From the NCBI GenBank assembly GCA_029964075.1, contig CM057140.1, forward strand, positions 5,784,643-5,848,642: DNA of 64,000 nucleotides, in the 5' to 3' direction. Shown here piece by piece: positions 4,434 through 63,769 of this stretch (the first letter of the stretch is position 1; every line of letters begins with the position of its first letter). The notes under the pieces were generated by a model. That model saw only the letters and a list, made by a program, of their open reading frames with translations, searched no databases and was not told the origin of the DNA. This stretch comes from Patiria pectinifera (Eukaryota; Echinodermata; Asteroidea; Valvatida; Asterinidae). Position numbers and translations under genes: made by a program.

Positions 4434-5870
4434 TAGTCCAGCGGATATGTGACAAAATATCGATGAATTGTGCACTTTTGCATAAAAGCGTGAATCTTGG
4501 CACAGATGTTTATATTCATGCGAGAAAATGTTTTAGATGTGGAGCCATCGCAAATTTACCCTATTAGGGGCGTGGCATCCATTTAAAAAAAGGGGCGGGA
4601 CTTGTCGTGCCCGCAGTGAAAATGGTTTTTCCCACTTGTTACAAAAGCAGGAAACTGCACAAAGACATAATTATATAGATTATTAGTGTTTTCCAGATTC
4701 GGAGCCACCACAAAAGTACCTTTTTTGGGGCGTGACACCCATTAAAAGAAAAGGGGGGTAATTATTATGCCCACTTTGGAAAACATGGTGCCCATATTTC
4801 ATGAACGAATAAAATGTCCCACAGACGTTTATATTCATACAAAAAACAATTCCAGATGTGGAGCCATCTCGAATACACCCTTTTAGGGGCGTGGCAACCA
4901 TATAAGAAAAAAAAGGGGGGGCGGGGTTTTCAATATGCCCACCCTGGAAATATTGTTCCCACACTCATAGAGAAATGGAACTTTCCACAAACATTGACAT
5001 TCATGAGAAAAAGAATTCCAGATGTGGAGCCATCTCTAACACACCCTTATAGGGGCGTGCAACCATATAAGAAAAAAAAGGGGGACGGGGTTTTCATTAT
5101 GCCCACCCTGGAAATATTGTTCCCACACTCATAGAGAGAAATGGAACTTCCACAAACATTGACATTCATGAGAAAAAAAATTCCAGATGTGGAGCCATCT
5201 CGAACAAACCGTTTTAGGGGCGTGGCAACCATATAAAAAAGGGGGGCGGTGTTTTCATTATGCCCACCCTGGAAATATTGTTCCCACATTCATAGAGAAA
5301 TGGAACTTTCCACAGACATTAACATTCATGAGAAAAACAATTCCAGATGTGCAGCCATCGCGAAAACACCTTTTTTCGGGGCGTGGCAGCCATATTGGAA
5401 AAAAAAGGGGGCGGGGTTCTCATTATGCCCAACATGGAAAAAAATGTGTCCACATCTCATAAACGAATGAAGCTAATTCCCACAGACAATAATATTCACG
5501 AGAAAAAAAAAGTCACACGTGAAGCCATCGTAAACACACCCTTTTAGGGGCGTGGCAGCCATAGCAAAATAGGGAGGGGGTAGTCATGATGCCCCTATAA
5601 AAGAAAGTCATGCCTACCTTTCATTAATGGATTAAACTCCACACAGACAATATATTCATGAAAATCTTACTTTTTTTTAATTCGAAGCCATCACAAACTT
5701 ATCCTTTTAGATGCATGGCATCTATTTAAAAAAACAACGGGGGGGGGGGGTGCTACTAATCATTTGCCCACCATCGAACTTTCATAAATGACTGAACTTC
5801 ACACAAACTTGGTGCAAGATAATAAATTCATATGTAGAGCCACAGCAAACTCATCCTTTTAGAGGTGTGA
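4434..5870 (+). repeat. Foldback copy 1, left arm: about nine 165-bp tandem repeats
   Basis: Units are marked by GATGTGGAGCCATC at about 4535, 4690, 4855, 5020, 5188, 5347, 5518, 5683 and 5835. Each unit also carries CCTTTTAGGGGCGTGGCA, a poly-A/G tract and TTCATGAGAAAAA. Spacing is 150-170 bp. The outermost unit adds the terminal segment with CACTTTTGCATAAAAGC. Confidence 0.88.
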
Positions 5871-6378
5871 GGGGCCTACTCACTGTGCCCACTATTACAT
5901 TTTTTTTTATTTTGTTGTCGATTTCTTATAATGTTGATTGGCCCATAACCTTTATTATTTGGTAATACAATGACTTACACCAAAGAGCATGGGTAAGTAC
6001 AGGTAGGCTAACCCGTGTTATAGGGTTCAATGTGTGTACTTGCACCTATGTTATCATGCACATCTAAATACCAGAGTGAATTCATAATTACAAATACACA
6101 ACACACAATGGCAGCCCTAAACTCTAACATTTAACATTTAAGGGCCATGGAAATCCTTGTTTTTACGGGGGGGGGGGGGGAAGTGTAAAATCACCCTACC
6201 CCCTACCCGTTGCGCCGCATTGACAGTGGTGGTCACGTCCACTATGACTTCACATTCAATGAATCTGTGTACCCCCACCACACAACACCTCTGTTCTCTT
6301 AAAAATGGTATATCAAGCTCTGATGAGTGGGTTTTTTTTCACCCCGACCAAATCCATTAAAATTTGTTATACTTTATA

Positions 6379-6690
6379 CAGGTGCGACACTGCATATGCC
6401 TTTTGGTCTGTCAGAAAAAAAGGCAGGGGAAACAATGTATTTGAAGAAGTAACACCAGTCTTTCCAAGACTAACTGAGGTACCCCAGTTTATACCCCAAT
6501 TCAGAAACTGCTGCAGTTGAAAGGTTAACAATAATTCTACAGACGACAGAACCAGTAACTGGGTTAATATAGATGAGGCAAGAATGCATAGTGTAAGAAA
6601 ACAAAGTGTTTGCCAACAGTAACTTCCAACTATTAAGGCGGCCCTACTCCAACACATTAAACAGCTATCTGAGGTGGATTTTATTATATG
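6379..6690 (+). pseudogene. Remnant of the foldback-element nuclease gene (copy 1)
   Basis: Plus-strand decayed coding sequence. The frame from about 6379 reads YRCDTAYAFWSVRKKG and then NVFEEVTPVFPRLTEVPQF. This aligns with the intact-looking region of the copy at 47759-57577 (YTGCDTVSAFLSIGKK then NMFEEVTASLKRLTEVPQL). Similarity continues with frameshifts through NIDEAR (about 6570) and the AALLQHIK region (about 6640-6665). It covers only the TGCDT-to-C-terminal part, so most of the gene was deleted. Finding it between the same arms links gene and arms as one family. Confidence 0.75.
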
Positions 6691-7370
6691 AAACGCGGTC
6701 AAAATTTTCCACGTTGTGCATATTGAGTACCCCCCCATTTTAAAAATGGATGCCGCGCCTCTAAAAGGGTAGGTTTGTGATGGCTTCACATTACAAAAAA
6801 AAAAAAAAAATTATGAATATATTGTCCAAGTGGAATTTAATCCATTTATGAAAGGTAGGCACAACTTTCTTTTATAGGGGCATCGTGACTACCCCCCCCC
6901 TTTCTATTATGGCTGCCACGCCCCTAAAAGGGTGTGTTCGCGATGGCTCCACATCTGGAATTGTTTTTCTGATGAATATAAACGTCTGTGGGACGTTTTA
7001 TTCGTTCATGAAATATGGGCACAATGTTTTCCAAAGTGGGCATAATAATTAAAAAAAAACTTTTCTTTTAATGGCTGCCACGCCCCCAAAAAGGTACTAT
7101 TGTGGTGGCTCCGAATCTGGAAAACACCAATAATCTATATAATTATGTCTTTATGAAGTTTCCTGCTTTTGTATCAAGTGGGAAAAACCGTTTTCACTGC
7201 GGGCACGACAAGTCCCGCCCACTTTTTATAAATGGATGCCACGCCCCTAAAAGGGTAAATTTGCGACGGCTCCACATCTAAAACATTTTCTCGCATGAAT
7301 ATAGACATCTGTGCCAAATTTCACGCTTTTATGCAAAAGTGCACAATTTTTTCACATATGCGCTGGACTA
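6690..7370 (-). repeat. Foldback copy 1, right arm: about four inverted 165-bp repeats
   Basis: Reverse-complement units of the left arm, marked by GGCTCCACATCT or variants at about 6780, 6944, 7108 and 7268. Each has TGCCACGCCCCTAAAAGGGT. The outer end (7290-7370) is the inverted copy of 4434-4520. Confidence 0.87.
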
Positions 7371-22015: not shown

Positions 22016-25000
22016 GTAAGTGAAACAATTATTATTGCTGGCACTACAACGTCCTTTTTTTACCTTTCTGACTGACTCCCCCCCCCCCAAAAAAAAATGA
22101 CTTCCTGTCTCGTTTTTCTCTACCCCCGTTTTCCCCCAAGAACAACATGGGAAAGAGAAAACCGGAGACCATTTTGGTAAACAAAAAGCGAAAGAGAAGA
22201 ATCGAATCAATCTTGTACTGTACCTTCAATTGAAATCCTTCACTGCACATTAAAATGAAATCTTTTACTGTACAATACAATGACTGGAGAACCACTGAAA
22301 TGGCCATAAACTGCAAAAATATATACGTATACGTATGAAATAGATTTGAACAGGGACCTCAGATGATGGTCCCCGTCCCCGTTATTCGATTTTTTTTCCA
22401 CGGTCGATATATCTAAGCACGCAAATTTATGCGACCCTGCAACCCAGCCAATCGGAGTCGACTAAATTGTGACTAAATTTGTTTTTACTGAGTTACACAT
22501 GTATACCCGATCTCTTAAAAATATAATTAGTCCTGATTGCAAAGTTTCAATTTGTACGTATTTCTTTTACGAAACAAATTCCACTATATTCCAACCTCTT
22601 CTAGAAGAGTAACTTTATTTTCAACCTTGTTTCCCGGAAAAAATATTTTCGGATTTTTTTTTCCCTGTATATTGATTCCACACAGCAACAGCAAGTAATG
22701 TTTGCTGTGAATTATCACGTTCACGCCACCTCATCAAGAGCCCCCATTTCCATTTTGCTTATTTTTATGTTGTGCTGCCGTTTTTTACTGCGGGCACGAC
22801 CCTAAAAAGGTAAATTTGCGATTGCGCCATTTTCCGGCATGAATATGAACATCTCTGCCAAGTTTCACGTTTTTATGCAAAGGTGCACAATTCATCGATA
22901 TTTTGTCACATATCCGCTGGACTAATAATGGTCGGATAAGATTGCTACTTTTCAATTTAAAAGGCACTGTAAGCACAAGAAGGCACCAGAGTATTACTTA
23001 TTTGCATATGTGTGCATAGCCTTGGTCAAGGCGTTTGTCCCTATGGTATTCGGCGGCATATCTTTGCCGCACACTTCAAACAGAACAACGAAGACTAAAA
23101 TATTCTCCAGAAACCATGAGAAAACGTCGCCCGACACTATTCTACCGACTGCCGTTGACCAAAAAAATTGGCCAACAAAAACATCAGATTTACCTCAAAA
23201 CGGCCTCCAAATTACTAGATACGCCTCCTGAAATACAAGGAGAGATCGATGATTATATTCGAGGAACTAAAGATTGCTTTCGTGTTGGATGAAAAGTGAA
23301 ATTTCCCGTTCCGAGAGCGCCCCTCGCGATCGATCGTGAACACGCAAAATAGTAGACTGGATCTCGCTTGCACACACAAGTGCATTTCGAACTATGATAC
23401 GGAGTCGGGAACTTGGGCAGCTATCAGCGGAAACCAGTTAAAGCTAGTTCCCGACCCCATATCATCGTTCGAAAGCACTTAGTGTACAAACGAGATCCAG
23501 TCTGCTCATTTTCATAATCAATGCATCGCCCTCGGTAACGGAATCGCGCTGGGACCAGCAGATGAACGCTGGGCACGTACGTCCACATTGCATTGTTCAA
23601 ACACGAGTTGGAAATTTAACATGTTGACGATCGCGATGGAAGTTCTCGGAATTGAAAGGGAAATTTCACTTTTCATCCGACTCGTAAGCAAACTTGACTA
23701 CCTCGATTTTAATCATCGATCTCTCCTTGTACCTCAGGAGGCGTATCTAGTAATTTGGAGGCCGTTTTTAGGTAAATCTTCTGTTTTTGTTGGCCAATGT
23801 TGGTTTTCTGGGGGTCAACGGCAGTTGGCAGAATAGTGTCGCACGACGTTTTCTCATGGTTTCTGGAAAATTGCCACCAAAATCATCGAAAAATTTCCTA
23901 TTTTTGTCTTCGTTGTTCTTTTTGAAGTCGATAACTAGCTTCATGAACGTCTGCTGCATCGTATGAGGTATGAATTATGGAATCTGTGTCGGAATAATAT
24001 AGGGAAAATAACCGTTTTTGTAATGCACTGGGGATGTACAGTCCAAGATTTCGGGATTTTTACGACCCGGTGATTGTAACGTAGTTTTGACTCGAGCTCT
24101 AATGCGAAATGCATTAGAGCTGGAGTTACTCAAGCTAAGTAACTATAGGCAATATTGAGTGAAAATGTACATTTTTCTAAGAATCCCTTTTTTTTCTACC
24201 AGTTTTTGCTCGTAGAAGGTACAATTTTGAATGTTTGGCAAGTGCCCAACACCACACACACCTACATCATTTGAGAGCCTAACATGTCTACTCTTAGATT
24301 AGGCATAATGTGGAACTGTCAAATGGGGGAAAATTTGTCTTTTGGCTCATTTTGGTCTAAAAGTCACAATTTTGGGTCAAAAATATGATTTTACAAATGT
24401 TGTATTCTATATACCTGTGGGACCAGCCTGAACCATCGAGGAAAGTTTTACAACAAATTGACGTTCCATTAATTCACAAATACCATATTAAGATTATAAA
24501 ATGTAAAGTAACTAAAGGCAATATTGAGTAAAAATGTGAATTTTTCTCAAAATCGTGTTTGTTTTGGGGGGAACATTAAGGTAACATTTTGTTATTTGTC
24601 CGTTGCCAAACATCACACACCTACATTAAATAGGGAACACAATTGGTTAAATTTGGTATTTCAGCAAATTATGCCTTTTTATCAGCAAGCAAATGAAAAA
24701 AATCGATTATAGATCATTTTCACAATAACTTGACTACGACTTAGTGTATTTCTCACCAATTTAATTTAATAATTGTAGACATCTATGGAGCAAGTCACAT
24801 CTATGAAAGCAAGTTTTACAGCTAAATGTATATCATCTCCCATAAATTCACTACAGAAATCTTAGTATTACAAAATGTACAGTAACTATAGACACTATTG
24901 AGTCAAACTGGTTTTCTCAGAATCGTATTTCTAAAAAGCAAAATAAATGTTGAACTGCACAAATGTTATATTTAGGCATAAGATGGAACTGATGAGTGAC

Positions 25001-31000: not shown

Positions 31001-34000
31001 AACTTAGGTGGGAAAGACCATGGCTTATTGTCAAGAAGTTGTCAGACGTGACAGTTCGAATCCAGCTTAGGCGTGGTGGTAAACCAAAGGTGGTCCATAA
31101 AGACCGATTAAAACTGTGTGTCGGTGAGGCAATCGAACCGTGGCATTGTCGATCAGAGGAACAGGTGACAGAAAGCCTCCCCATGGATGCAATCCCCGAG
31201 GTTGAAGATGACAAAGAGTCGTCTGAGGAGTTGGCCGAAGAGGCCGAAAATGAGGCTCCTGCAATGGGGGATTCCATTATAGAGGAGTTGACTCCAGGTA
31301 GTCCAGGTAGTCCAGCCAGTCAGTCAGAACGGCAGGATGAGTCACCGCTAAGACGGTACCCAAGACGGGCCCAAAAATTGACCCATCGGTATCGTTAGTG
31401 TCGAGATTTGTTGTTGAGGTCGTCTGAGGGATGAGGCCCCAGCCTCCTCTGGTTCATCCCCCGCATCCTCCATCCCCCCACTGGAAAAGGTGGCGAGAGC
31501 ATCCCAGCCACGCCCCGAAGTGTCCATTTCCCGAGAGACATCCCCCGATCTAGGATGAGGACGGCGACTGTTCGGGTCCAGTCATCATCTCAGACGTAGC
31601 TGGATGGCAACACCATCGTCTCCCGAAGAGAACTACCGGATGAGCTACAAGTAAGAGTCAGTTGAGGAGAACGGGCGTCCCGTCGTCCAGTGACAGAACG
31701 ACGCGTTCCAGTTTAATGATTTTGTGTGTGTGTGTATATAACTAATTGTCTAAAGTTTTTCATAGAATTAAACAGTTCTAAAATTCTATGTTCTGAAATG
31801 TTTTCCTAACTTTTTTCTTACAAGTTTTCTAAAAGTTTCATAAAGGTTCTGTAAAATGCTGTTGCCGGTAAAGAAAAAAAAAGGTTTATAATTTAATTTA
31901 AAAATTCGTTGTTGAAACTTTGCAAAATTTATCCAAGTTAAATCATGTAAAATTTGATTAGCGAAAATCTTGCCATCAAATTCAGTGCATTTCATCAGTC
32001 TTGAATTATCCTTAAATTTCTGCTTTTAATCTGTGTACAATAAGTGCAGATTTCCCCTAAATTCTTGTGAATATTTAATGAGCTAAAATTTGACTTGGAT
32101 GAGTATAATTGTTTTCCTTAAATTTCTTGTAAATATTTAATGAGCAAAATTTTGATTCAGCTGCTGTACGATAATACCCTGTTGAATCTTGTGAATATTT
32201 AATTAGCAAAATTTGGTGAAGTTGTACATGTACATGGATTTTCGACACGGTGTACTGTGCACTTAGAATCGTGTGCATATTTAATGAGCTGAACTTTGGT
32301 GTTCTTGCACATGTGAAACACTTGTACTTGTAACTGACATGTAGGTAAAGTACATGTTATATTTTGTGAAAATTTAATGAACTTTGATATCAGCTTCCCC
32401 TTTTATGTTTCTATTGTAATTTAAAGATGAAGTTAAGCTTTAAGTTTTATATTGAATTATGTAGAAGAAGTTAAGATGTAGTCACACTTTCCCTTTATTT
32501 TTGTATTATGGCTTTAGTATGGGGTCATCCTCTGCCATGCTCCGTCTTTGTGGCGGAAAGTGTTTAGTTGTGACGTCATACCATAGCACTAACGCTTTAT
32601 AATCGCTTGTGTGCAGTAACCGGGGGGAGCTTACGGGCTCCGTGGGCTGCTGCGCGTACATGATTGGCTAATTTTCCCCATAGGTTTAGCGCACCATAGG
32701 GTTAGTGCATGCACGTGGTTTGTAGACATGGCGTAGCGTCTGGTACATGTATATAAATGCGTGCCTGGAGATTTCATTTTGGCTTAGGAAGACTTTGATT
32801 GTTAGGTGAGATACTGCTTGTGTTCCTAGCTGTTTCAGGTGTTGAGTTCCGGGTGTCTGGAGATAGCGGGCTAGAGCGTAGCTGCGACGGCGGGCAGAAA
32901 AGTAAATTACTTGTACTCTGCATGTGTAATTGCTTAGGCGATTCGTGTACAAAGTCTGTGTAGCTGTACTGGGGTTGCGCTGGTACGTGTAGCTGAATTA
33001 TGGCTTACACACACGGCGTAGCGGGTACCCTGCTAACGGACTGTATACATTGCTAAGCGGCTGTTGTGCGCTTGTGACGCTGTGTTATTGCTAACTTAGC
33101 GATTCATAACTAGCGCCGTGTATATATAGTTGCTCATTGCTGCCATTGTTGTCTAGTGCTTAATGCTATGTGCGTTGTTGCATATCCGAGCAGCGGGCTA
33201 TCTCCAGTAACTAAGGACCCTGTTAATAAAACAACCCACCGAATCACATCCTAATTAATGTACCTGATTATTGTTGAATAAATTACGTTGTTGTTTGAGA
33301 TTACCGACAATACTGCTTCCGGTGTTTATGTTTACAGGTTTATTGTGCAATTAATTAATACAGATAGATAAACAACACTCATTCATAATCGGGCGGTAGA
33401 TTTTCACCAAAACGGACCTGCACCCTTAGCCTTGAAGGTCGCTCTGAGTTATCTCTCGTCTAGGGAAGAGCCTTGGTTTGGGAAGATTGTCTTCACCCCA
33501 CTAGGAGTCAGACTTATCCTAACATACTTAGGTTGGCCGGGGGGGGGGGGTGTTCCCGCCACACTATCTATTAACCATATTCACGTTTTTATTTAGCTCG
33601 GAAAACAGGCAAAAGTTTAGTAAATAACAAAACGATTACCTTCATGTTGTTTTAAGAAATACGGTTGTCAGAAAATTGCATATTTGCACTTAATACTGTC
33701 TTTAGTTACTGTACATTTTGTAATCTGAATATGGTATAAGAGAATTTATAGAACGGCAATTTGGTCTAAAACTTGCCTCGATGGTTCGTGCTGGTCCCAC
33801 ATTTATAGTCCCCTATTAAATACCAAATTTGTTAAATTAAATTTTTTTGGACCAAAAATGTGAGTTTTAGAACAAAATGGCTACAATCAAATCTTGAAGT
33901 AGACATATTAAACCTGCTCATGATGTATGATGTAGGTATGTGTAGGGTGGGGCATTTAAGTCAACCCAAATTTGGATTCCGCCGCTCGCCTATTAACACC

Positions 34001-46000: not shown

Positions 46001-49000
46001 TATTAGAGGACTGTGAATTCGTATCATACATGCGACGATAGCCAACAACTTCACAAATAATTGAGTGTGCAAAGATGGTCAATAAGGCCGGTCCTTGCGC
46101 AGAATTACTGATTGCAGTAAGGGCAGGTGTTGGTTGGGGCTAACTAGGTGGAAAGGGGAAACTTGATCTGTTCTTACAGAGCTGTCGTTTCTGTTCGGCT
46201 TCACAGATGCGGCCTTTCTCATACTTCTTTACGCCGTGTATGACTAAGTTATAGGCCAGTTGGAGCGCTGCTGCGAAATAATCTCCCACGTCTCTAGATC
46301 TATGCTGCAACCTTTGACGGAGGCATTAAGGGTACCTTAATTTGTAACGTTTCCCGTGCCACCTTGAGTCTGCGCATATTAAACAACTTGCTGTTATAGC
46401 AGTATTGCAGATAGACCCCTATATCCCCGCAACAAAAGGTATCTGTCAGCATATCCAAGAACATCATGTTAATGGGTAGGTCCCAGGATGCAGCCTTGCT
46501 TCACTCCGTTGGCCACTCGGAAGGGCTCAGAGAATGCGCCGTTGTCTTGGACACGAGCTTGCATGCCATCGTGGATTTCACAGACCATGTTAATGAACAT
46601 GTCGGGGCAGCCAAAGTTGGACATAATCTTCCACAGGCCCTCTCGGCTTCAGTAGCGTAGCCAGGAATTGTTCAGTGGGGGGTGGGGGGGGTGCGCTGGG
46701 GGGCTGAAACATTTCATTGGGGCGTCTCGTAGATCAATGATAATTGTTTTTAAAAACTCAAAATCTAAGTGGGGGGGGCGACTGGGGGGCGACAAACATC
46801 AGACAGACATACATCAGACAAACAGACAGCGTAAAATTTGTTGATTTAAGATATATGTGTCGATCATGCCAGAACCTAAAGGGAACAAATTGCCTGGCCG
46901 TTGCAAATCCCTTTGGCGAAAACCAAGTTTTGTTTCGCTAAACAATGGTATGCCCTCGTGTAGTGATAAAGCGTTTCAAAATGATTTCCAGTGTCTTGAT
47001 TTTGTTTCATAGATCCGTATTTGGCAATCCTCTCATTGAGATACAAGCCTGGCTTTTCTATAACACGCAGCTCACAAATTTGTAAGTACATGCATATCAT
47101 CTACAATCAATTGTTTATTAAGTGATGTTATGGAGGTTGTATATTTATTTCACATTAACGTGCCGGGTGCACGATCCGTCATGTTTGCCGCCTATAGCGT
47201 GCTTGATCGGCTGTGCAGTACATGTACAATGCATTATGCGTAGCGTGCATGTTACGGGGTATCCGTCACGGTCAATATCCGATTTGAAAAGGTCTGGGCA
47301 GTTTTTCCCTAAATTTTGTAAGTGGACGTACTCACCTATGGCGTTTATGGCCCATTATTTACATGTCTGCAACCGGAGAGGTGTAATATGGCGGAAGCGT
47401 GGGTAACTGCTCAACTCGTTCGTCACATTAAGTACTTCTTTAACCAAAACAAGATCGATAAACCAAGCTCCGACCTATGAATCTTTAACCAATAACAGCA
47501 ACGTTTTATGTCCAGCATTGCGTGCACTTACATGACGCGCGTGTGTGGCGTGAATTTAGGTATCAATGATATACGGACTCATTGGAAGTATTACAAATAC
47601 CTCGGCGAAGATAGCTAGGAGAATGACCAATAAAAGGGTAAAAGCGTCCTATTTCTTTAAGTCGGATTTTCATTCGCCACCGGCTGAAACTTGCAGTGTT
47701 GTATGCCATTTCAAATTGGCACTTGTGTGACGCAAGTACGTTGTGTGCGGGGCAATTTTAGTCTAGCGGATATGTGAAAAAAATTGTGCACTTTTGCATA
47801 AAAGCATGAAACTTGGCACAGATGTTTATATTCATGAGATAATTTTTTTCAGATGTGGAGCCATCGCGAAGTCACCCTTTTATGGGCCTGGCAGTCATTT
47901 AAAAAGGGGGGGGGGGCTTTTTATGCTCACCGTTAAAAACGTTATGCCCACCTCTCAAAAATGCATATAGCTGCAAACAAACATATATTCATGACAAAAA
48001 CAAATAGATGTAGAGGTCTCGGAGAATAACCATTTTAGGGGCGTAGCATCCATTACAAAAAGGGGGACTTCATTATGTCCTCAGTGAAAAAAAAGTGCCC
48101 ATCTTTCATAAATGCATAAAAGTTCACAAAAACATATATATTCATGACCAAAAAAAATTCAGATGTAAAGGCCTTGAAAAATTACCCTTTTAGGGGCGTG
48201 ACAGCTATTTATAAAGGTGGGGGACTCGTTTTGCCCTTTGTGAAAAACAAATTGAGGCTGATATTTATAAATTCAGGAAGCATCATACAGACATATATTT
48301 ATGAAAAGAAAACCAGTTTAGATGTTAAACCCTAAAGGACATGCCCCTCTTGGGGGCGTGACAGTTATTTCAAAAATAGGGGGTGGGTGGGGGTTGTTGT
48401 ACGCACCATTGAAAAAAATTGACAACACTTCTAAATTGCATCAACTTCACACATGTATACATTTAATTGTATCTATGATTTTTTTTTTAGATGTGGAGAC
48501 CTGGCAAACCTAGCCCTTTAGAGGCGTGGCAGCCATTTTAAAACGGGGATCGAGTCACATTCAACGTACCCCCATTTGTAATTTTCGTTTTCTCTGGCCG
48601 GTTTTGTACAATGTTGGTTGGCCATTAATCTTCATAAATATTATCCCATTTAGTAACACTGCAACATCGGCATATATCATTTTACTTTAATTTACTCCTA
48701 ATTTCTTCATAAGTGGAATTAAATAGTTTAATAAGCTGACATTGAACATACGTGTACTTTCACATGCACCTCCTAGCTCAAGAAGATAGCACACCTGCAG
48801 GAGACATCAACACCCTGTATTCCCGGTAAGATCAATGACTCATGAGGTTCAACTAGAAGAAATGCTTCTCTTTAAAAATTACGTATAAAAAGACTGATGC
48901 CATCTACAGGTACAACATGGGAGGGTCTCCACTACAGTCCACTGTACTGATAATCATTTTTACCTTGCAACATTTTTCTGCAAAGTAAACTCAACCGGAG

Positions 49001-52000
49001 TCAAAATATCATCAGGACTGCAACAAATCAAATAAGACCGTCTACTTCAAAGAAATTTCCATCACTACAACATGGAGGTGAATTCGACTGCTTATAAAAC
49101 ACCTGTGCGCCAGCAATTGGAACACTGCAGTACAATCTCGGGCCCACATCATCAAACGTCCGTCGACCGTATTGAAGGTGTTCAGAACTGAGTTGCCAGA
49201 CTTTCATTGGCATCGGGTGAAAAAGAACCTGGATAGGGAATCGTTGGAAGAGAGACGGTTGACAGCTCACTTGACTCTTCCCTATAAAGTAGCTAACCAG
49301 TCTGCAGCCATTTACATCAATTATTCAACATCAACAAAGAAGCTCAGGGTTCCACAAACACCGGTACACAAATACCTCTTTGTCATAGAAAACTAAACTC
49401 TGCAGTTTCCACCACATGCACATAAAGCAGTACACTTAAGGGCTGCTTTGAAGCACTTGCACCTTCCTGTGCACCTTTTTTTGCAGGCCCAGCAAAGCAG
49501 TTCACGGCAAGATGCGCTAGCCTCAGGAAGCGTTGTCCATAGTGGCCTCCAGTTTGACGCATCTGTCCACCCCCATTCACCAGGAGATGACATATCGGGA
49601 TCTCTGATGAGAGATTTACCCCAACAAAATCCGCCTTGGTAGATGGCTCTTCTGATGTGTTGGATTAAGGCCGCCTTTGTAGGTGGAAGTGACTGCATGG
49701 TACGCCCTTTCTTCGTAAACAGATTCATTCGTGCCTCATCTATATTGACCAAGTTGCTGGTTCTGTCATATAAAAGGATTGTGAACCTTTCAAGCACAGC
49801 AATATCTGAATCTTGCATAAGTTGGGGCACCTCAGTTAATCTTTTTAAGGAGGCTGTTACTTCTTCAAACATATTCCATGTGTCTTATGCCCTTTTCTTC
49901 CCGATAGACAAAAAGGCAGATACTGTGTCGCAACCTGTATAAGCATGAAACATTGGCAGGGCTGCTGATTTTGCAGGGCCAATTGATGATGCAATTTGAT
50001 GAGCAGGAATACAACGAAAATTCTTTCCAACACCGAATGCTACCCCCATTTCTGCACCCAGAAGCTTGTTTACTGTTGATACAGCTAACAAAACCACATC
50101 AGTATCGACTGTACGGATGGGGGGTCTTCTGCAACCTTTTTTTTTTATATGCATCAGCTTCTTCATTGTTGCAAGGCGCTAGGTCAGACATGTCTTCTTC
50201 ATGGTTGCAAACAACTTCTGATCCTCTTGAGGAAATTGTTGTTTTTGTTGTCTCAATGGCTACAACATAGTTGGCTAGGATTGCAAACAATTCTTGTTTG
50301 TTTTGATCAAGTCGAAGAAACTGATCCCAGCTTCCTGGCAAGAGAGATGTTGATTGAATTCTACGTCTGATACCTTTCCCCCTTTTTGTCTTGTTTCAGA
50401 TTTGAGACTGTTGGGTATGTACACGTCAAAGACAAGGTATATTCTGCTGACCTTCTCCAGACGACTTTGGATGTACGGTACGAAGATTTTTGAAGCATAC
50501 TCCCCAAAGGTCTTAACACCTTTCGGCTTGATCATGTTTACAATAGCAGCTCCATCCACGATGATGACATCAACTGAAGGTACGACTGTTTGGGACTCGG
50601 CGCAGCTTTCAAGACAGTGCACCACACTGAGAGAGCGAAGGGGGACATGGTTGATTTTCATGTTTGAAAAACTTCTCCATGTTGCCATCACGCATTTGGC
50701 AGGCAATGCGCAATCTCGAAAAGAGAAAACAATCATTCTTGAGTGCAGATAACTGAAACTTTGCTTTAGACTTGAATGATTCGGATGATCAACTGAACAG
50801 TTGCAGTTTGTTTCTCTTGATTGTATCCGTAAAAGGCACGGTACGATCTACAAATCTGTCTGTTAGAAAAGAGCTATACTGCTCTTGGCCCAACTTGTAA
50901 GCCTTCTGCAAAGATGTCACCACTGCATCATCCATTATGTCTCTTGTGTCAAGTCGAAGCAGATCATTGCTTTCTTCCAAGAAAGGGTTGCCCATTTCTT
51001 CTACCACCTCGACAAGTGCCTTGGTCTGAGAGGCAAACGTCATTTGCACAGCTATTGTTTGCTCATGATGTTTCGTCGCATAGGTTGAACCTCTGTTTTC
51101 TATATACGACTCAAATTCAGAAATCGTGCGAGCAACTTCTGGTCCGGAAACCATCCATCGTCTGAGAGCCTCATTGTTTGAGGTAAGCCAACAACACCAC
51201 CGTCACCCTTAACCATAGCATTATTCTGTTCGTGCGCTTGGTCAATTGCTATGGCTGAGAAAGCAGAGTGACTCTTGTGAACTGTGAATTTCCCCTTTCG
51301 ACATTCTTCAGCAATGTTGGGGTGTGTCTCGCTGAGACTCACCATGTCTCGTACGTGGATCGGCAGCCACCTCGCATAGTTGTTGTGATCTAGGCTGAAA
51401 AACCACGGCGTCAGCTTTGTGAGGCAGTCGATGTACAAACCAAAATTTGCTTCTCGGAGTGACCTGACGTAAGATAAGACAAGAAGCTCTAACTGAAGAG
51501 TAGAGTACCAATACTGAAAGTGTGGATGGTCTTTACACTTCATAATTACACCAGTCATCTAGATCCATTGGTTGGTCTCCTTCAGTAATGGCTTCTGTGT
51601 ACTTGGTGTATACCTTCTTCAACAGTATATACAAACTGCAAGCAGTCACCTGATGAGCGTGCCTCGTTCGAGTGACATGGGATGCCTTGAGAAAGGAGTC
51701 GGCGATTCCAGCTGATGTTATTTTGGCCTGCACGAGGGCTTCAACCCTTCCACTATCTTCAAGCCAATCACCAATCGCCTTGAGAGCAGTTATTTCAGTA
51801 TGCAATCCACCAAGAAGGATGACAAAGTTATCCTCTCCGTACTGCTTTGGCCACCTCCACTGTATCTGTTTTGCAACTGCATACAATGGCTGATCCATTG
51901 TGATCACTGGTGTCTGACTAGGATTAAGATGTAGAACAGCCTTCTTAATCATGTCCATCGAACGTATCATCGCATAAGACTTGGATTGGTCGGGGAACAG

Positions 52001-55000
52001 GGGTAGCATTGCCATAATTGCCGGTTACAAATCATGCACACCTGTCTGATTTGTATGGTATGCTGACCATGAAATGTTGCTGTCCCTTCCAATGTCTTGG
52101 AGATACATCTGTTGGACATGCTGCAGCCACCTGAAAAGGAATAATACAAACAGAGCAAAAGTTTATAAGACATTACAATGGTTGTATCAAAGCAGGTGAA
52201 CCAAAAAAATGTTCAGTAATTTCAGTTTCAACGTGTCTATTCTTATGATGCTGTCAATTGTTACAATGCAAACAAATTGTGTTGCAAAATCATATGTATG
52301 ACACAAGTAAAACAAACAGCCTACCTGTATTCATTCTCTAATAATTGCTGATACACATGTCCGTCACTCTTGAATGGTCCACTTGTTCTTGGGACTGAAG
52401 ATTCTTCCTTTTTCACAAGTACTGGGGGTACACTCGTATACAATTCTGGCAGGTCAGACACTTTCTTCGTTGAAGCTACTGAATTCATAACAAGCTGACT
52501 CTGGCTGTTGATTTCTTCTTCAGGGCCCTTGGGGTGCTGGAACATTGAAATACCTGTTCCGTGAAAGGAATCAGTGGCTGTAGTTGAACTGGTGTTGTGG
52601 TCAATGTTGTCCACGGCCGAGGTGGTGAATTCCTTTAGCCGAAGATTTCGAGGACATACAACATTATTTGCAACATAGTGATCACATACAACATTTCCCA
52701 ATGCAGTTGAGATGCTCAAAACTCTGTCATAGGACACCGACAGACCTAAATCAAAGAGTGTGTCCACTAGGTCTCTCTTACGGGTTTTGGCATGCACCTT
52801 CATCCCAATATAGACAGGCAGAGGAGTTTTTTTTTGTTATGACGGGGACTACATGTACCGGTACTTGTCGCATCTCTACGTCTAGAGTAGCTGTTGAACT
52901 GCAGCAACTGAGCCATACTGAGGGTAATTTGGGAATCAGTGCTTTCTTCCAGCTCACTGTTATTTGAACCATTGAGGATCATCGATACAAGTGCTAATAG
53001 TGAGCGGGGCACAGATTTCTTTTGAAACTCTTTTTTGAAAGAGGCGGTAAATTTCCCTTCCACTTTAAGCATGTCTCTTCGAACGATATGTGCTGCCTTC
53101 GTAAGTATGATGGCTTCTTCATCGCTGTCATCATCTTTATAGGCCCTTTTCAAGGCGATTCCAACATCCTTGTCGAATGCAAGCAGTATATCCCTTCCAT
53201 CTTTTTGCGCTTGCTTAACTGGGAAATGTGCAAGAATACGCTCTTTCAGTCTTGTGTTGTGCAGGCGGGTTTTGTGTTCAACTCCAAGCTGCCAGAGGCG
53301 GTGGACATACATTCGGGATACATCTGCAAGCCTAAAAACTGGAGCAGTATCTTGATCATTTCTGGCTTCTTCTATGTATGCTTTTATCTCTGCAAATGCA
53401 ATACCATGCTCGATGCTGTCAGGGCAGTCTTCGCAATTCTTTCTCTTTAGTGCTGTACTTTATTGTACAGTGAAGCCAAACAGCACACATGGTATTGTAG
53501 CGGAATTACCAAATTTCCCCGGACGATTTGTTCCCCCGGTGGTCACCCAGCAGGTGTGGTACCTCCTTCAAGAGACCCAAGACCGGTGGAGTAGGCCCGT
53601 TGGGCAGAAATGTACCGCCTAATGCACAGGGCTAACGACTGGACCCTCAGTAAACCTCCTCGGGGACAGACAGGAAACAGGACAAGAGTAAATGGGACAA
53701 TGAAATAATGATGATGTGACATCCTTTAATTATCAATCACTTACGTACTGCTGCTTGAACCTCCCAGTTATCGATTAAGTTGTACCCTCAATAATTAACT
53801 GATTACAAGCAAATAAATGAATGAATGAGTGCCTCTGATCCGCCTAGCGCTAGCGGTGCCGCCTCCTAGCAATTGACGCGCCTCCTAGTTGGATCCTTTC
53901 GTTGTAGCCTCTCGAGGCTACGAGTGCCTCCCCCTAGGGTTTCCAAAGGTAAGTTAACTACCTTCCCCTAGTACACGGACCAGAAACTAATCCCTAGTTC
54001 CTTATCGGCATCCCACCGCAGTCCCACTCAAGTATTCCTAACAGTGGCCCACGCTCGAATCGAGGTAGCGCACACTGTAGCCTCCAATACCTGAGCTCAG
54101 CACTCCACACGTCCGTTCCCGACGATGTCTGAACACGCACTGCCGCTCGCGCTGAATGTGTGCAACTAGCGCAGTAGCGCTCTAGCGCCCTCTGTAGTTA
54201 GACTCTGAAAACTTGCTCGCGCTCGCATCGCATAGCAAATCTCGCTCATTTGCGTTACAGTATTTTGCCTTCTGTGCTACCATATCTCCAACACTCAATT
54301 TAACTAGCAGAAGATCATCCTGCAACTCAGTGGCACACTTGCGGACACGATAGTCCAGTTCCAATGTTAACACTTCGTGAAGTTGTTCTTGAAGAAGATT
54401 CTGATCACAGAAAAAAAACAGATAGCAACATCTGGTTGAGGGGAATCCGTCCTCCTTGTGTATTTCTTTATCAAAGAAGGTTCATCGTTAAGTTGGCATC
54501 GTTTCTCTGCTCGTTTCAGCTTAGTAGTGTTGAATTTCAAAAAAACAACTCTTATGCCACCTAGCCTTCTTCGTAAGCAGAGTAGCGGCAAGTCCTTGCC
54601 CTTCATTGATCAATCTAACATCAATGTCGATAGGCAATGACTGTAAATTATGGAAGTCCATAATGTTTTCAGCAAGAGTATGATACCCAGCGCCAACATC
54701 TGCACGGGTTGACTCAGCAGGACACTGGATTGGTTCAGCTCTGATCTCTTGACAAAGAACACATCTTGTCCAATCTGTTGACGACACAGATGGTTGGACA
54801 GTACCCTCCGTTTGTGGATCTTCATTGAAGTTTGTGCACATTGGATTTGCTTCAACATTGCTCTTTGTTGACTTCAATGCTTATGAGTTGGAAACACCAC
54901 CTTTTTTTACATAATTAGAGATGAGTTGAAAGGTACTGCATTTCTGTGAAAAAAAAAGATAAAAAAAGGATATATGTTTAATAAATTACTTTGCATATTA

Positions 55001-58000
55001 TCTGAAATTGAGGGCATTGAATGATTCCCTGATTGTTGTCATTGTTTTGTTTTATTTATCTAATTACTTATTTTATTATTTGTAATTTGACTTTCACAGG
55101 GTAGCCTCATAAATTAAATAGTGACAGCCTTGAGAGTTTTATATGAAATAGCAACATTAAGGATAAACAAGTACCTCAATATGAGACAAAACAATGACAA
55201 AATATTAGAAAGAATATTGAATAATCAACAAATAAGTGAAATAAAAAAAATACATGTAGACCAATAAATAATAGAACAGAACAGAAAATATATTTAACAA
55301 GTTGTTCAGAAAAGAAAACAAAAATAATTAACAACAATACAGCATGAAAAAAACATTCGTATGAAATTTAAAAAAAAAATAAAGGTTATAATCAACAGAA
55401 ATAAACACCATTCAAAATGACAAATTGTGTAAAGTTCCATATACATGGAGTAATAGAAATATAAGATTATAATTAATTTACCTTCGACAAAACTTGAAAA
55501 ATAGACATTCCCTGAACAAAAGCTGGATAGATTCATGAAATATAATGTTTGAAATACTGATAACAAAGAAAAAAATTCAAAAAAAGTTACAGGAGATTTA
55601 AAAACCTCATTAAAGGACTCAGCCACGGTCGTTGGGCTGTGGTTGACTTATTCCATCCCATCTGAAATGTGTGCCATGCAGCAGTTTGTCTTGGAAGCAC
55701 AACACGTACACCTTGTTGTTTCAGAACTGCATGAAACATGCGCCACGAATTGGAAAAAATAAATAAAAACATATCCTGCAAATCATGTAGGGTTTCAGTT
55801 TGAACAGTTACGAAATGAGACTCCGACTGTTTTACTAGAATAAAACAAAAGTAAAATGAGTTAGCGGCGGAGGCTAAAAATGCTTCATCGTGACTTGTAA
55901 TTCTAGCCTGCTATTCATCCGGCCACATAGTGTGCATGATGAGGGCGCTGAATAGTGTTCCGGTCTTATAACAACAAAATGTGGGACCGGTTCACGGCAA
56001 TATAACCAGTATGTTACTGCTGCGAAAAAGAACTAGGCCTAGGCCTAAATCCATGAAATCGCAGGTTGATGTTTTGGTGTGTATTATTAAAATGACCGCT
56101 CTATAGCCTGAGTTTTCTATTTCATACACAGTCAGAAAATATTAAAAGGCAAATGCCTAGGTCTACTGTTATTGCGATATACAAAGGCAACTCTGTCTGT
56201 TTTCTACTCCTCGGGCACCCGCTTCGTGGGCAAGAGACCATAGCACCCAACAATATTTTTCATAAACATTTGCTGAGAATCTGAAGTTAAATTATTTAAA
56301 ACCTAACAAATTCAATGTATTATTGAGCACATTGGCCTTTGAACAAGATTCATTCATCAGCATAGCAGGCCTAGCTTAGCCTTAGCCTAGGCCCTGCATA
56401 CATGTACATGGCATATGCACTGGCCCACACACTGGGTCTACAATTTATCACAGAGTTGCAAATGAAAACATGCTATATCCTCCAAAAGATACATTAAACC
56501 ATTATCTACAATAAAATCTAATAATAAATGTTTACCTTCATACACCTATTTAGCCACAGAGTATGACTAATTAATCACTATGAAGCATTTAGACCTGTCC
56601 CAGCAGACGAATAACTTTTCATGAGACTCCATCTTGGTTGATTTAACAGCTTAATTACGTAGTCTGGTGCAATGTTCAATTTACTGGTATTAAAGCTGCG
56701 CACAGAGGCAGGGTACCAGAGCACATTATTCATATGTAATAACAGAATGCATACTCCATAAAAGACACATGAAAGAGCATGTGGTTTCTGAGGTAACAAA
56801 AAGCAATAAAGGAAGGAACATTTCAATTTTTTTATGGATCCACATCTGAAATTATTACTTCCATGCAGCAAGTGGTTCAGTTAAGGTTGGCACTTTTTTT
56901 TTATTTGGGCAGAACATGTACCAACCCCCATTTTTAAAATGACTGCCACGCCTCTCAAAAAGTGGATTGATAAAGGCTCCACATCTGATTTTTATTTTTT
57001 ATTAATATATACAAACATATATACCTCTATGTGTGAATTTTTATTTATTTATAAAAGGTGGTCACGTTTTTTCAAGGTGGGCAAAGGAGCCCCACCCCCT
57101 TCTTGAAAATGGCTGCCACGCCCCTAAAAGAGTAAGTTTACTAAGGCTCCACATCTAATTCTTTTCCCCTCGTAAATATATATGTCTGTGTAAAATTCCA
57201 AGAATTTATGACACAAATGGGCCCTTTTTTAAGTGAAAATAATGAGTTTTCCTTCTTTTTTTTAAACGCTGCCACGCCCCTAAAATGGTAAATTTCCGAG
57301 TGCTTCATATCTTTTTTTTTTTCTTTTTAAGTCATGAATATGTATGTCTGAACGAAAATTCATGCATTTATGGACGGAGGATACATTTTTTTTAGGTGGA
57401 CACAAGAACTCCCTCCTTTTTTGTTAAAACAGCTGCCACAACCCTAAAAGGGTGATTTCGCGATGGCTCCACATCTTAAAATTTTCTTCTCATGAATATG
57501 AACATCTGTGCCAAGTTTCATGCTTTTATGCAAAAGTGCACAATTCATCGATATTTTGTCACATATCCGCTGGACTATTTGGATCTGCCAATTCACACAC
57601 TGTTATGCTTCAGAAACATTTTTGTCGTATGATACAAGAACAAATGTTAAATTATTTGCATTTTGTTTACTTCTAAGTGATTCATACCTCATAGGCAAAG
57701 CCAAAGCCGAAGACGAAATCAACTATTTCGAAAACCCCATTAATGATAACAACTTGGTTTATTGCTTGTAAACTTAATATGGCACACAATTATTCTTCAT
57801 TTTCAATTTTTTTGTTAGATACATGTTCCAAAACAACTTTTCTTCGATCGGAGAGAGACCATTTGCCACCGTCAATAACACAATCAAACAGGTGTAAGTA
57901 CATTAATAATGCAATTTTCTAATTTGTTCGCTTCTCCAAAAGGAGACATGTATTGAACACCATCATTTTGTCATAGCATACACTGTTGGGTTTCATATGT

Positions 58001-59959: not shown

Positions 59960-59989
59960 GTACGTATGAAGTGCAGTTTTTATATCTGA

Positions 59990-60575
59990 AAGGCAGAGTT
60001 GTTATTACTCGTTTCAATGACTCGACTCAAGTCCGACTCGAGTCACCATTTTCGGTGACTCGATTTAACTCGAGTCCCAAAGGGTAAATGAATCGACTCG
60101 ACTCGAGTCTCAAAAATGAAAGCAAAACTGAAAATGAAAGCGAAAGCAAAAAAAAAATATTTGCAATGTCTTACGCCGGTGACGGTTTTTGTTCACGACA
60201 CATTAGAAGGTTCGCAGACTGATGTGTAATCATACATACGCGGTTTGATCAGTGTCCCCGTTAGTTATATTATGGCGATCAGCTACCCCCCCCCCCCTCA
60301 TCATTAAGAGTCAAATGTGGTGTCACCACATGTAGAAGACAGAAAGTAAAATTACAAAAGCCAAAAAATGCTTTTCTCTCTCGTGTTTATTTATTGTATA
60401 GGGTTCAAATATTTGTGACTTGATTTGACTCGAGCTAATACCTGACTCGACTCTACTCAACACTGTGACTCGACTCGACCTTTTTGACCTATGACTCGAC
60501 TCGACTCTAGTCACGTCTTTAAAATGACTCCACTCGACTCGAGTCACAGAAGTCAGTGACTCGTTACAACTTTGC
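59990..60575. repeat. TCGACTCGAGTC-rich simple repeat
   Basis: Variants of GACTCGACTCGAGTC cluster at 60005-60115 and 60415-60560, with a poly-C tract at about 60286 between them. The motif is palindromic (CTCGAG), so both strands carry open but meaningless frames. Confidence 0.75.
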
Positions 60576-60859
60576 TTAAAGGATATATTTTTCTTGAAGG
60601 AAATAGGGGGGAAAATCACCGTCTCTGTAAATGTTCATGTCATCGAGCAGGTTAATCGCTTGCAGATTATTTAGGTGCACTTGCTGTTTGTTCCACCCAT
60701 GGGTATGTGACAAGCATGTGAGAATATAGCTAGCGGTCTAAAAAGTTTCCTAATTATAGGAATGCACGGATTAAATTGTGAAGAGGTGTCTTCCCACAAA
60801 TTGAAGCACCACAACTATTCGCACTGTAACACATTCAATGCACATCATGCACTTGTGGA

Positions 60860-61480
60860 CTAGCGGATGTTTGTCCCAGAATCATGAACACCTGAGGTAC
60901 TTATATCATGCATCTTAGGTGCCAGATGACCCACAAGCACACATACTAGCACATACTGACTAGCACGTCTTTGTCCCAGAATCATGAACACTTGAGGTAC
61001 TATTAGCACATGTTTACTAGCGCATACTGACTAGCACATCTTTGTCCCAGAATCATGAACACTTGAGGTAATATTAGCACATATTAACTAGCACATACTG
61101 ACTAACACGTCCTTGTCCCAGAATCATGAACACTTGAGGCACTATTGGCACATGTTTACTAGCACATACTGACTAGTACGTCTTTGTCCCAGAATCATGA
61201 ACACTTGAGGTACTATTATCACATATTAACTAGCACATACTGACTATCACGTCTTTGTCACAGAATCATGAACACGTGAGTTACTATTGGCACATGTTTA
61301 CTAGCACATTCTGACTAGCACATCTTTGTCCCAGAATTATGAACACTTGAGGTTCTATCATCATATGTTTACTAGCACATGCTGACTAGCACGTCTTTGT
61401 CCCAGAATTATGAACGCCTGAGGCACGACTCTATGCACCTCAGGTGCTAGTTGACTCGACTAGCACATACTGGCTAGCAC
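60860..61480. repeat. 71-bp minisatellite, about eight units
   Basis: Units share TCTTTGTCCCAGAATCATGA, ACACTTGAGGTACTAT and ACTAGCACATACTGACTAGC. CCCAGAAT-type marks fall near 60875, 60975, 61046, 61117, 61188, 61259, 61330 and 61401, giving a 71-bp period after the first longer unit. Confidence 0.88.
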
Positions 61481-61522
61481 GTGAAATCACGAATACTTGA
61501 GGCACTTCCATCACTTCACGTA

Positions 61523-61765
61523 CATGGGCGTCGCGAGGGGGGGGGGGGGGCAAGGGGCACTTGCCCCCCCCCCCCCGGAAAAGCAAAAAAAATTAAAAAA
61601 AGAGGCGCGAAGACAAAGTGGTGTAAATTAAATGAGTTGGGGGTGGGCAAAATGTCCCTACCCCCCTCTAAAACTGATAAATCGAGAATGTGTTGAGAAA
61701 TACAAGCATTTTTATGGCAAAAAAATTGTTTGCCCCTCTAGAAAAAAATCCTGGCGACGCCCATG
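61523..61765. mobile_element. hAT-like MITE with perfect 8-bp target duplication (second family)
   Basis: Ends CATGGGCGTCGC and GCGACGCCCATG, flanked by TTCACGTA on both sides (61515-61522 and 61766-61773). 243 bp with G/C runs and no coding sequence. The ends resemble those of the element at 20635-21408. Confidence 0.85.
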
Positions 61766-61773
61766 TTCACGTA

Positions 61774-63769
61774 CATTAAGCGCTGACGCAGTGACATGTA
61801 CCCGAGGAGACAGTTTGAAGAAAAATCAAGCGCCCGGGCCTGCGACGTGCACGGAACACTTTTTCAAACACATATTATAAAACACATTTTTAGAACAGAA
61901 AATTCTCTTTCCTAACAAAAAGTAATTTACGTTGTTAAATAAGAAAATCATCATCAAATTTCAGATTTTGTTATAAAATGAAGAAATCATGTGTGACATT
62001 ATGTTACATTTAAGTAATATTTCCGACAGTCATTATTCACATCATCGCATAAACTATAAAAAGGAATTACGCCAAATTTAAAAGACCAGAACTGCACCTG
62101 GCGTGAAACATCTTAATTGACAATTATTAAATCCCTCCATAAAAATTTATTTAGGGTATCCTCTGACTACAAACGGAACTCCTCCCACTACGAAAAAGAC
62201 CCATCCAATTGCCCAGAAATCCCCCCCCCCACTAACACGGGGCAAAGTTTCAAGTTTTAAGCCATATGTTAATTAGTGATTTGTTTTTAAACTACTGTAC
62301 CTCTTCATTCATTGTCAGTTGTCGGGATGTATACAGGGATGTATAACCCCAGAGGGGTTAAGTTGACCTTTTCATAATAAGCAAACTTGTACATGTATGC
62401 TTTATATATCATTTTAAAATATCCTTAAAACAAAAAAAATGCTCTTATCCCGTAAACTTTGTTTTGTAAAAAAAATATCAGAATGACAATAAAACGTTTA
62501 GGCCCCTACAAAAAAAAAATTTAAAAAATGTTTCCAGTTTCTGGTTAAGACTAGAGTAAAAAAGTGGAATGTCGATTATTATTATTTTTTTTAATGTTCC
62601 ATATTGCACAACATAATGAGCGAGTTATGATATTCAGCTATTCCAAACCAAACCGTATCACCATGTTAGAAAATACAAAGATTAAAGAGCCATATGCACA
62701 TTAAGCAAAAATGAACCATCACCAAAAAAGTCCACAGTTTTTGATTCAGGGTTAACTAACTTGAAAATTGGAATGGCGATTGATTTTTTTTTTTATGGAC
62801 AAAGTCTGAACCAATCCCACAAGAACAGTCTTCAAACCAACTAAGCACACCATGGACACATCACAACTTATCGAGAAGATATGGACAGATGTCCTCGTGC
62901 TTCCAAATGAGACTTTGTAGGTGAACAATTTGGCCTCTGTCACGTAAGCCCTATGTGAAGAGTTTACCATTTTGTCAAAGAACACTCCAGTCTATTTATT
63001 TGTTACATCTCAAAGAAAAAAATAGCATGCACTTAGTGAGTTTCCTTAATTGTGTAGGTGTTTTTATTAATAAAAATATAAAGATGTGATAGATATATCT
63101 TTTTTTCCTGTGTTCACTTTAATTATTATCGAATCAACATTTCCAAGAAATTATACATATGGGTCTTTTCATGAATTGGCATACAGTTTGTGACATATTT
63201 TTGGATAAAGAATAAGTGGTAAGGAAGGCAGAATAGTCTTTAGGTTTGTTTTGACTCCTGTGGTTGTTTAAGCACGTTTCTAATCATTATGGTGCTATTG
63301 AGCATAATATTTGAAAGACAATTAAAAGGTTCCCAATAAAACATACAAACCACACATTTTTTTCTCAAAAATGTGGTTAGTACTTGTAAGTTTTATTCAC
63401 ATTTCCCATAATGAATAGCTCAGAAAAATAATCAGACCATCTAAAACTTGTATTTTGAAGATTTGAATACAAGTCTTTGCTAATTTATGGAATCTGCACA
63501 TTGATCCTGATTGTTTAACTCTTTAGTTTTTTTTTTGTAAATTAACGGATTTCACGGGATAGCACTAAGACTTAACATTATATTTCCAAATATTTGTAAG
63601 TAATGCGCCTATCAGATGTTTCCTCCCCCCCCCCCCCCTCCGCGCAGCCCAATGTCCGATGTCGGGATTTGGTCACGTTTTTCATGCCACAAGGTGGGGG
63701 ATTTTGGTCACTCAAATTACATTGTTACCATTGGTATGTACGGAGCTTTTAAAGGGACATAGGTGAAAA
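61774..63769. other. AT-rich stretch, no exon found
   Basis: Likely intron of the LRR gene. No acceptor-exon-donor combination with LRR or Cys-rich coding was recognised. A poly-C run lies at about 63625. Confidence 0.4.

Follow-up and report, generated by a model that had tools for sequence, protein, structure and literature searches.

The 64,000-nt stretch of the Patiria pectinifera genome analysed here (the window; C12:5784643-5848642) carries, between 47759 and 57577, a dead transposon whose long inverted arms enclose a large gene on the minus strand. Its ends are an inverted 24-nt pair (47759-47782 and 57554-57577, 92% complementary), flanked on the left (47756..47758) and on the right (57578..57580) by the 3-bp target-site duplication (TSD) TTT. 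An earlier annotation made from the letters alone (the sequence-only reading) had described the same TTT duplications together with exact inverted termini; the duplications and the inverted pair are both present, but the termini differ at one base over 19 nt and are near-exact rather than exact. The terminal 19-mer matches at five places in the window with up to three mismatches, whereas shuffled sequences average 0.01 such matches.

The left arm (47759..48540, plus strand) begins with the terminal 19-mer and continues with five units of about 160 bp, their cores (GGGGCGTGGCAGCCATTTT, scored with up to five mismatches) lying on the plus strand at 47883, 48038, 48193, 48353 and 48521. The right arm (56936..57577, minus strand) has four units, with minus-strand GGGGCGTGGCAGCCATTTT cores at 56936, 57106, 57262 and 57426, and is closed by the terminal 19-mer at 57559-57577. 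Unit spacing is 155-170 bp and every unit in both arms faces inwards, much as the sequence-only reading had it (repeats of about 165 bp in opposite orientation). The window element thus has the long inverted arms, built from tandem units, that characterise Foldback elements. The arm arrays in the window were not reported by Tandem Repeats Finder (TRF). Elsewhere in the window the core occurs only at 31498 and in a second, short element of the same family (4434..7370; 2,937 bp, TSD TTG), which has eight units in its left arm and four in its right.

The middle of the long element is filled by a gene of about 1,500 codons (49402..54808, minus strand), delimited by open reading frames (ORFs) and by tblastn with a 1,527-aa relative. 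This relative, an intact open frame on C6, is similar to the window gene from end to end, at about 25-50% identity depending on the segment. The layout comprises N-terminal cysteine pairs resembling zinc fingers, a central block with the pattern D..D..GxxH..E, a C-terminal nuclease-like block and a CXC-like tail. The nuclease-like block (49885..50625, minus strand), placed by ORFs, tblastn and an alignment of relatives, shows the motifs VIVDGA, VFDVY, NNEEAD, RTVDTDV and TGCDT; it is split by frame changes, and an in-frame TGA follows at 49885-49887. The cysteine-rich tail (49402..49520, minus strand) was read from ORFs. The gene as a whole is broken by several frame changes and in-frame stops, and those breaks at which reading frames overlap are frameshifts and not introns. 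The one GT-AG intron candidate (52131..52324, minus strand) was read by eye, without a transcript. A large, spliced minus-strand gene in an autonomous element had been proposed: the size and strand of the gene hold, the splicing comes down to this one candidate and is contradicted at the overlapping breaks, and the window copy, with its decayed gene, is dead and therefore not itself autonomous. The element lies in a segmental duplication, in that the window from about 46729 to 63727 corresponds to C12:5547000-5564400, about 284 kb away, with the transposon in both copies; identity between the duplicates is about 90% for the most part, and insertions and deletions occur within them.

The family is widespread in the genome, which was searched as 613.5 Mb in 1,020 contigs. 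With up to two mismatches, the terminal 19-mer has 390 matches, compared with three for the reversed pattern used as a control. Among the 100 of these places that were listed, 70 form 35 convergent (+/-) pairs within 15 kb, and none has a divergent or same-strand neighbour within that distance. The spacing is 0.4-3.5 kb in 33 of the listed pairs, and 8.2 kb and 12.0 kb in the other two (C8:6181755-6189994 and C7:22943838-22955804, respectively); the examined part of the C8 pair resembles a short element, and this pair may represent a nested insertion. The first 642 nt of the window's left arm gave at least 100 genome matches (from 40 scored of 453 candidates). Twenty-three arm loci were taken from these matches, and 20 of them yielded a paired element (all except L022, L030 and L031). 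The window also holds a solo terminal fragment of the family (22795..22924, minus strand).

Target-site duplications were compared in 23 elements, namely these 20 short elements, the two window elements and the C12 duplicate. The TSD is exactly 3 bp in all but one (22/23, the miss being L028) and is 4 bp in none of the 23, while pairing the flank of one element with that of another gives agreement in 56 of 506 combinations. Two members of the set are not independent: L038 mirrors L020 including its flanks, and the C12 copy has both flanks of the window copy. Many of the duplications are TAA or TTA, but TAG, TTG, TAC, TGA, TCT, TTT and others also occur. On the plus strand, 21 of 22 start with T (the exception being ATA at L018), a mild asymmetry, the sample being small and the two non-independent elements among it.

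The short elements retain a decayed part of the gene. In 19 of the 20, matches to the window element cover the arms and, between them, sequence within 49623..49971 (minus strand), the 3′ part of the gene; only L021, of 503 bp, lacks it. Translated, this remnant is the C-terminal region of the encoded protein, interrupted by stops, and the same 3′ remnant is seen at the DNA level between the arms of the second window element, at 6374-6685. Since the short elements keep both the arms and the gene remnant, they descend from an element that carried the gene between these arms. Past mobility of the family and decay of its long copies are likewise evident. The shared remnant may reflect one or a few deletion events that were later amplified. 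Compared with the left arm of the window element, the arms of the best-matching short copies show about 70-74% identity, and the parent of these copies was therefore a related element and not the window element itself.

Copies of the gene are also found outside this family of short elements. The nuclease block gave 96 genome matches, some of them pieces of one copy, and 15 gene loci were inspected with about 1-10 kb of available flank. Inverted repeats enclose the gene at six of the 15: the window, its C12 duplicate, C6, C22:24.33 Mb, C7:3.09 Mb and C21:3.29 Mb. At the last four, the arms are 263-357 nt long and 85-93% identical. Complete termini with a 3-bp TSD are present at four of the 15 loci (window, TTT; C12 duplicate, TTT; C6, TAT; C7:3.09 Mb, ATA). 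The C6 element, which holds the uninterrupted 1,527-aa relative, is 6,089 bp long and has TAGTC termini and 357-nt arms. The C7:3.09 Mb element (7,208 bp) has 352-nt arms and T/CAGTC termini, with C for T at one end. The C21 copy is nearly identical to that on C7 but lies in other flanks, as judged by eye, and has an imperfect left end and no duplication. At C22:24.33 Mb the arm is homologous to the window arm from the first base, and the right end is damaged. Weaker arm-like matches (E 6e-5) were seen at C7:3.09 Mb and C21, and the gene loci on C5 and C17 each match the arm on one side only (E 2.2e-8 and 1.9e-5). Gypsy-like retrotransposon frames, recognised by eye, lie near the C5 gene copy (L009:765-4717). 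Because divergent copies of the gene sit within their own inverted repeats that start with T/CAGTC and are flanked by 3-bp TSDs, the gene family looks like a transposase family. Over 266 aa, copies of the gene on C7 and C22 share 99% identity, as would be expected if the gene is mobile. Outside this genome, relatives of the gene were found neither in viral_contigs (searched with one protein and with the three-row alignment A3), nor in genome_contigs (A3), nor in phages (one protein).

We conclude that the window element is probably the dead remains of a once-autonomous DNA transposon of the cut-and-paste type, that the enclosed gene is its transposase and that, among known families, AcademX fits it best. 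Several observations weigh against this. No clear arms were found in the roughly 1-10 kb of flank at seven of the 15 gene loci (C7:0.95 Mb, C7:15.67 Mb, C20, C22:24.95 Mb, L041, L042 and L043). C7:15.67 Mb has only a 32-bp inverted pair (84%, E 0.006), and the arm-like matches at C7:0.95 Mb (E 3.6e-4 and weaker) belong to a neighbouring element. Shuffling the flanks also yields a TAGTC-type terminus beside a matching 3-bp flank, in 0-13 of 100 shuffles at each locus (window 9, C6 8, C7:3.09 Mb 1); given this chance rate, it is the long arms that carry the evidence and not the short motif. The other long copy of the window element, C12:5547970-5555676, is without the N-terminal half of the gene, and was rejected as an independent insertion, since both its flanks match the window and it is the segmental duplicate. 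Apart from this duplicate, a search with one 163-aa piece of the gene gave best matches of 44-56% identity, and no close intact partner was present among the matches to that piece. The neighbouring element at C7:0.95 Mb (C7:954521-960213; L003/L004), with TAGTCCGTGGGC ends and the TSD TTG, adjoins a gene copy without containing it, and apparently represents another family that has the TAGTC end in common.

The gene might instead be an unrelated passenger, picked up in a single event by a Foldback element that relies on a transposase encoded elsewhere, for example one of Mutator type. In the fetched set, the long gene lies between exactly these arms in a single insertion event, the C12 copy being a segmental duplicate, and the loci without clear arms would also suit a passenger. 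The remnant of the same gene in short elements at other sites does not, nor do the relatives that lie within long inverted repeats of their own, where the ends are of the T/CAGTC type and the TSDs 3 bp long; a Mutator-like transposase would, moreover, be expected to leave duplications of 8-11 bp, not 3 bp. The sequence-only reading had itself raised the test of a gene inserted in one element only, and with the remnant in 19 of 20 short elements and in 4434-7370, a single capture is rejected; we now consider a passenger very unlikely. It is still harder to see the copies as a cellular multi-gene family of PIN-like proteins, with the inverted repeats and TAGTC ends around some of them a coincidence. 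Several long open frames do occur without detected arms (L041, L042 and L043), and chance alone could place the short end motif next to a matching 3-bp flank, but copies 99% identical on different contigs, long arms around six of the 15 gene loci and gene remnants in short elements with 3-bp TSDs make such a family extremely improbable. The proposal that proteins with the TGCDT motif are the transposase is accordingly upheld by the relatives enclosed in T/CAGTC repeats and by the short-element remnants, and is limited by the arm-less copies; the converse possibility raised with it, that most gene copies are without arms, is partly borne out, with seven of the 15 loci showing none that are clear, beside six enclosed and two with one-sided arms.

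Conservation in the central block of the protein was read from an alignment of six relatives, which spans the middle of the protein and the greater part of the nuclease block; in L041 and L043 the C-terminal end is missing. D666, G694, H697 and E884 (C6 numbering; GxxH at 694-697) are invariant in all six, and an aspartate near 492 is common to the five rows that cover it. Together, the aspartate in the 492 region, D666, E884 and the GxxH motif form a candidate DDE/D site. Three of the four relatives examined with Pfam match DUF6589 in this block, below its cut-off and at best with E 2.2e-4. None of ten window ORFs had a Pfam match above cut-off, and no helicase family appeared in the scans of these ORFs and the four relatives.

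The C-terminal block is a probable nuclease of the FEN/XPG (PIN) type. In the C6 relative it carries VLDMAA (1116), VWDNY (1160), EADTR (1256), VDSDV (1281) and TGCDT (1338). When compared by hhalign with a profile of 30 archaeal FEN proteins (from 32 loci fetched), 217 columns are collinear, and most of the FEN active-site acids stand opposite the acidic motifs of the family; TGCD..GKGK falls where FEN has GTDYN..GIGPK. None of 300 shuffles aligns 217 columns with FEN, the largest reaching 114. The block thus shares with FEN1/XPG nucleases the order and rough spacing of acidic motifs, but differs in being joined to a transposase-like protein, and the score is not significant. A number of results count against the nuclease assignment. 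The FEN alignment has a probability of 0.25% and an E of 0.24. Shuffling the FEN columns gives at least its score in 67 of 300 cases and shuffling the family columns in 36 of 200, and another, central part of the protein does about as well (16.86 against 16.95), over 11 columns. The best PDB profile hit is YacP (E 0.23), a PIN-like nuclease, and a profile of six relatives had no meaningful match in PDB. Pfam XPG_I was found in one of eight members, under its cut-off (E 0.074), and is outscored by two unrelated Pfam families in one member each (E 0.014 and 0.032); none of nine whole-genome XPG_I matches coincides with a gene place. The assignment is called probable because three signals, each of them weak (YacP, XPG_I and the collinearity with FEN), all favour a nuclease. 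The CXC-like tail was recognised by eye, with Pfam TCR far below cut-off in two of four relatives (E 1.1 and 4.4). The nuclease-type acidic motifs and the Cys-rich, CXC-like tail that had been described from the letters are therefore both present, while similarity to FEN/XPG does not reach significance.

The nuclease of Academ elements is XPG-like. AcademX elements produce 3-4-bp duplications and AcademH elements 9-10 bp, a difference that their author relates to the nuclease or helicase encoded (available part of PMC10045372). The 3-bp TSDs of the present family (22/23) fall within the AcademX range, and AcademH, with its 9-10-bp TSDs and helicase, is excluded by TSD length and the lack of a helicase match. 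The family probably belongs to the AcademX lineage, as judged by the description of AcademX and not by Academ protein sequence. As far as that description is available, the two have in common a 3-bp TSD, terminal inverted repeats (TIRs), an element of several kb with a DDE/D-like block and, in place of a helicase, a probable nuclease, whereas the present family differs in its long arms of direct units of about 160 bp and its numerous short derivatives.

Membership of another superfamily (Zator-like, PIF/Harbinger-like or an undescribed DDE lineage with 3-bp TSDs), the PIN-like nuclease and CXC tail having been acquired independently, is a less likely but appreciable alternative. The Academ likeness comes from a description and not a sequence comparison, the central block matches DUF6589 only below cut-off, and the abundance of TAA and TTA among the duplications recalls Harbinger. 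The range of duplications nevertheless extends beyond TWA, and TSD length and the probable nuclease agree with AcademX as described in the available part of PMC10045372.

Mutator-superfamily transposons make duplications of 8-11 bp and P-type elements 7 bp; the family has neither, and TSD length excludes both. In the accessible text of PMC4079207, the Foldback structure arises in different superfamilies, and Foldback elements such as Tetris are mostly thought to be Mutator-like. Tetris likewise has long inverted arms made of tandem units, but its TSD is 8-10 bp instead of 3 bp, and no complete transposase-bearing copy is known in that text. Galileo, a member of the P superfamily in Drosophila, resembles the present family in its Foldback-like TIRs, some with internal tandem repeats, and in copies that range from nearly complete to two TIRs, but differs in its 7-bp duplications and P-type transposase (accessible text of PMC3573991). 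Foldback arms combined with an Academ-type, nuclease-bearing transposase were not found in the literature covered, which takes in few subscription journals. The Foldback structure itself is known, and what is probably new is its combination with a transposase that is probably of Academ type.

In transposition, the protein would bind the repeated arm units and the terminal 19-mer. Arm repeats are reported as repeated transposase binding sites in Galileo (available parts of PMC3573991 and PMC4079207). The DDE/D block may cut the element ends, and the nuclease block may process ends or flaps; insertion would take place at a 3-bp staggered cut, and the internally deleted short copies would have been moved in trans. 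One could further imagine that the arms and the FEN/XPG-like nuclease form a working pair, with hairpins, cruciforms or flaps arising in excision or synthesis and being resolved by the nuclease block, an idea we regard as quite doubtful. If true, the Foldback structure would belong to the way in which this lineage transposes and would not be a by-product.

For a long time the ends alone have served to define Foldback elements, in many cases without a known enzyme, and in the sources available most are placed in Mutator, with Galileo in P. In the present family, Foldback arms are linked with a different type of transposase, a DDE/D-like protein that probably includes a nuclease block, and it can be seen how Foldback elements without a gene originate from gene-bearing ones. 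The TGCDT protein family, for which no Pfam model exceeded its cut-off in the scans run, thereby gains a mobile-element identity, in this one genome.

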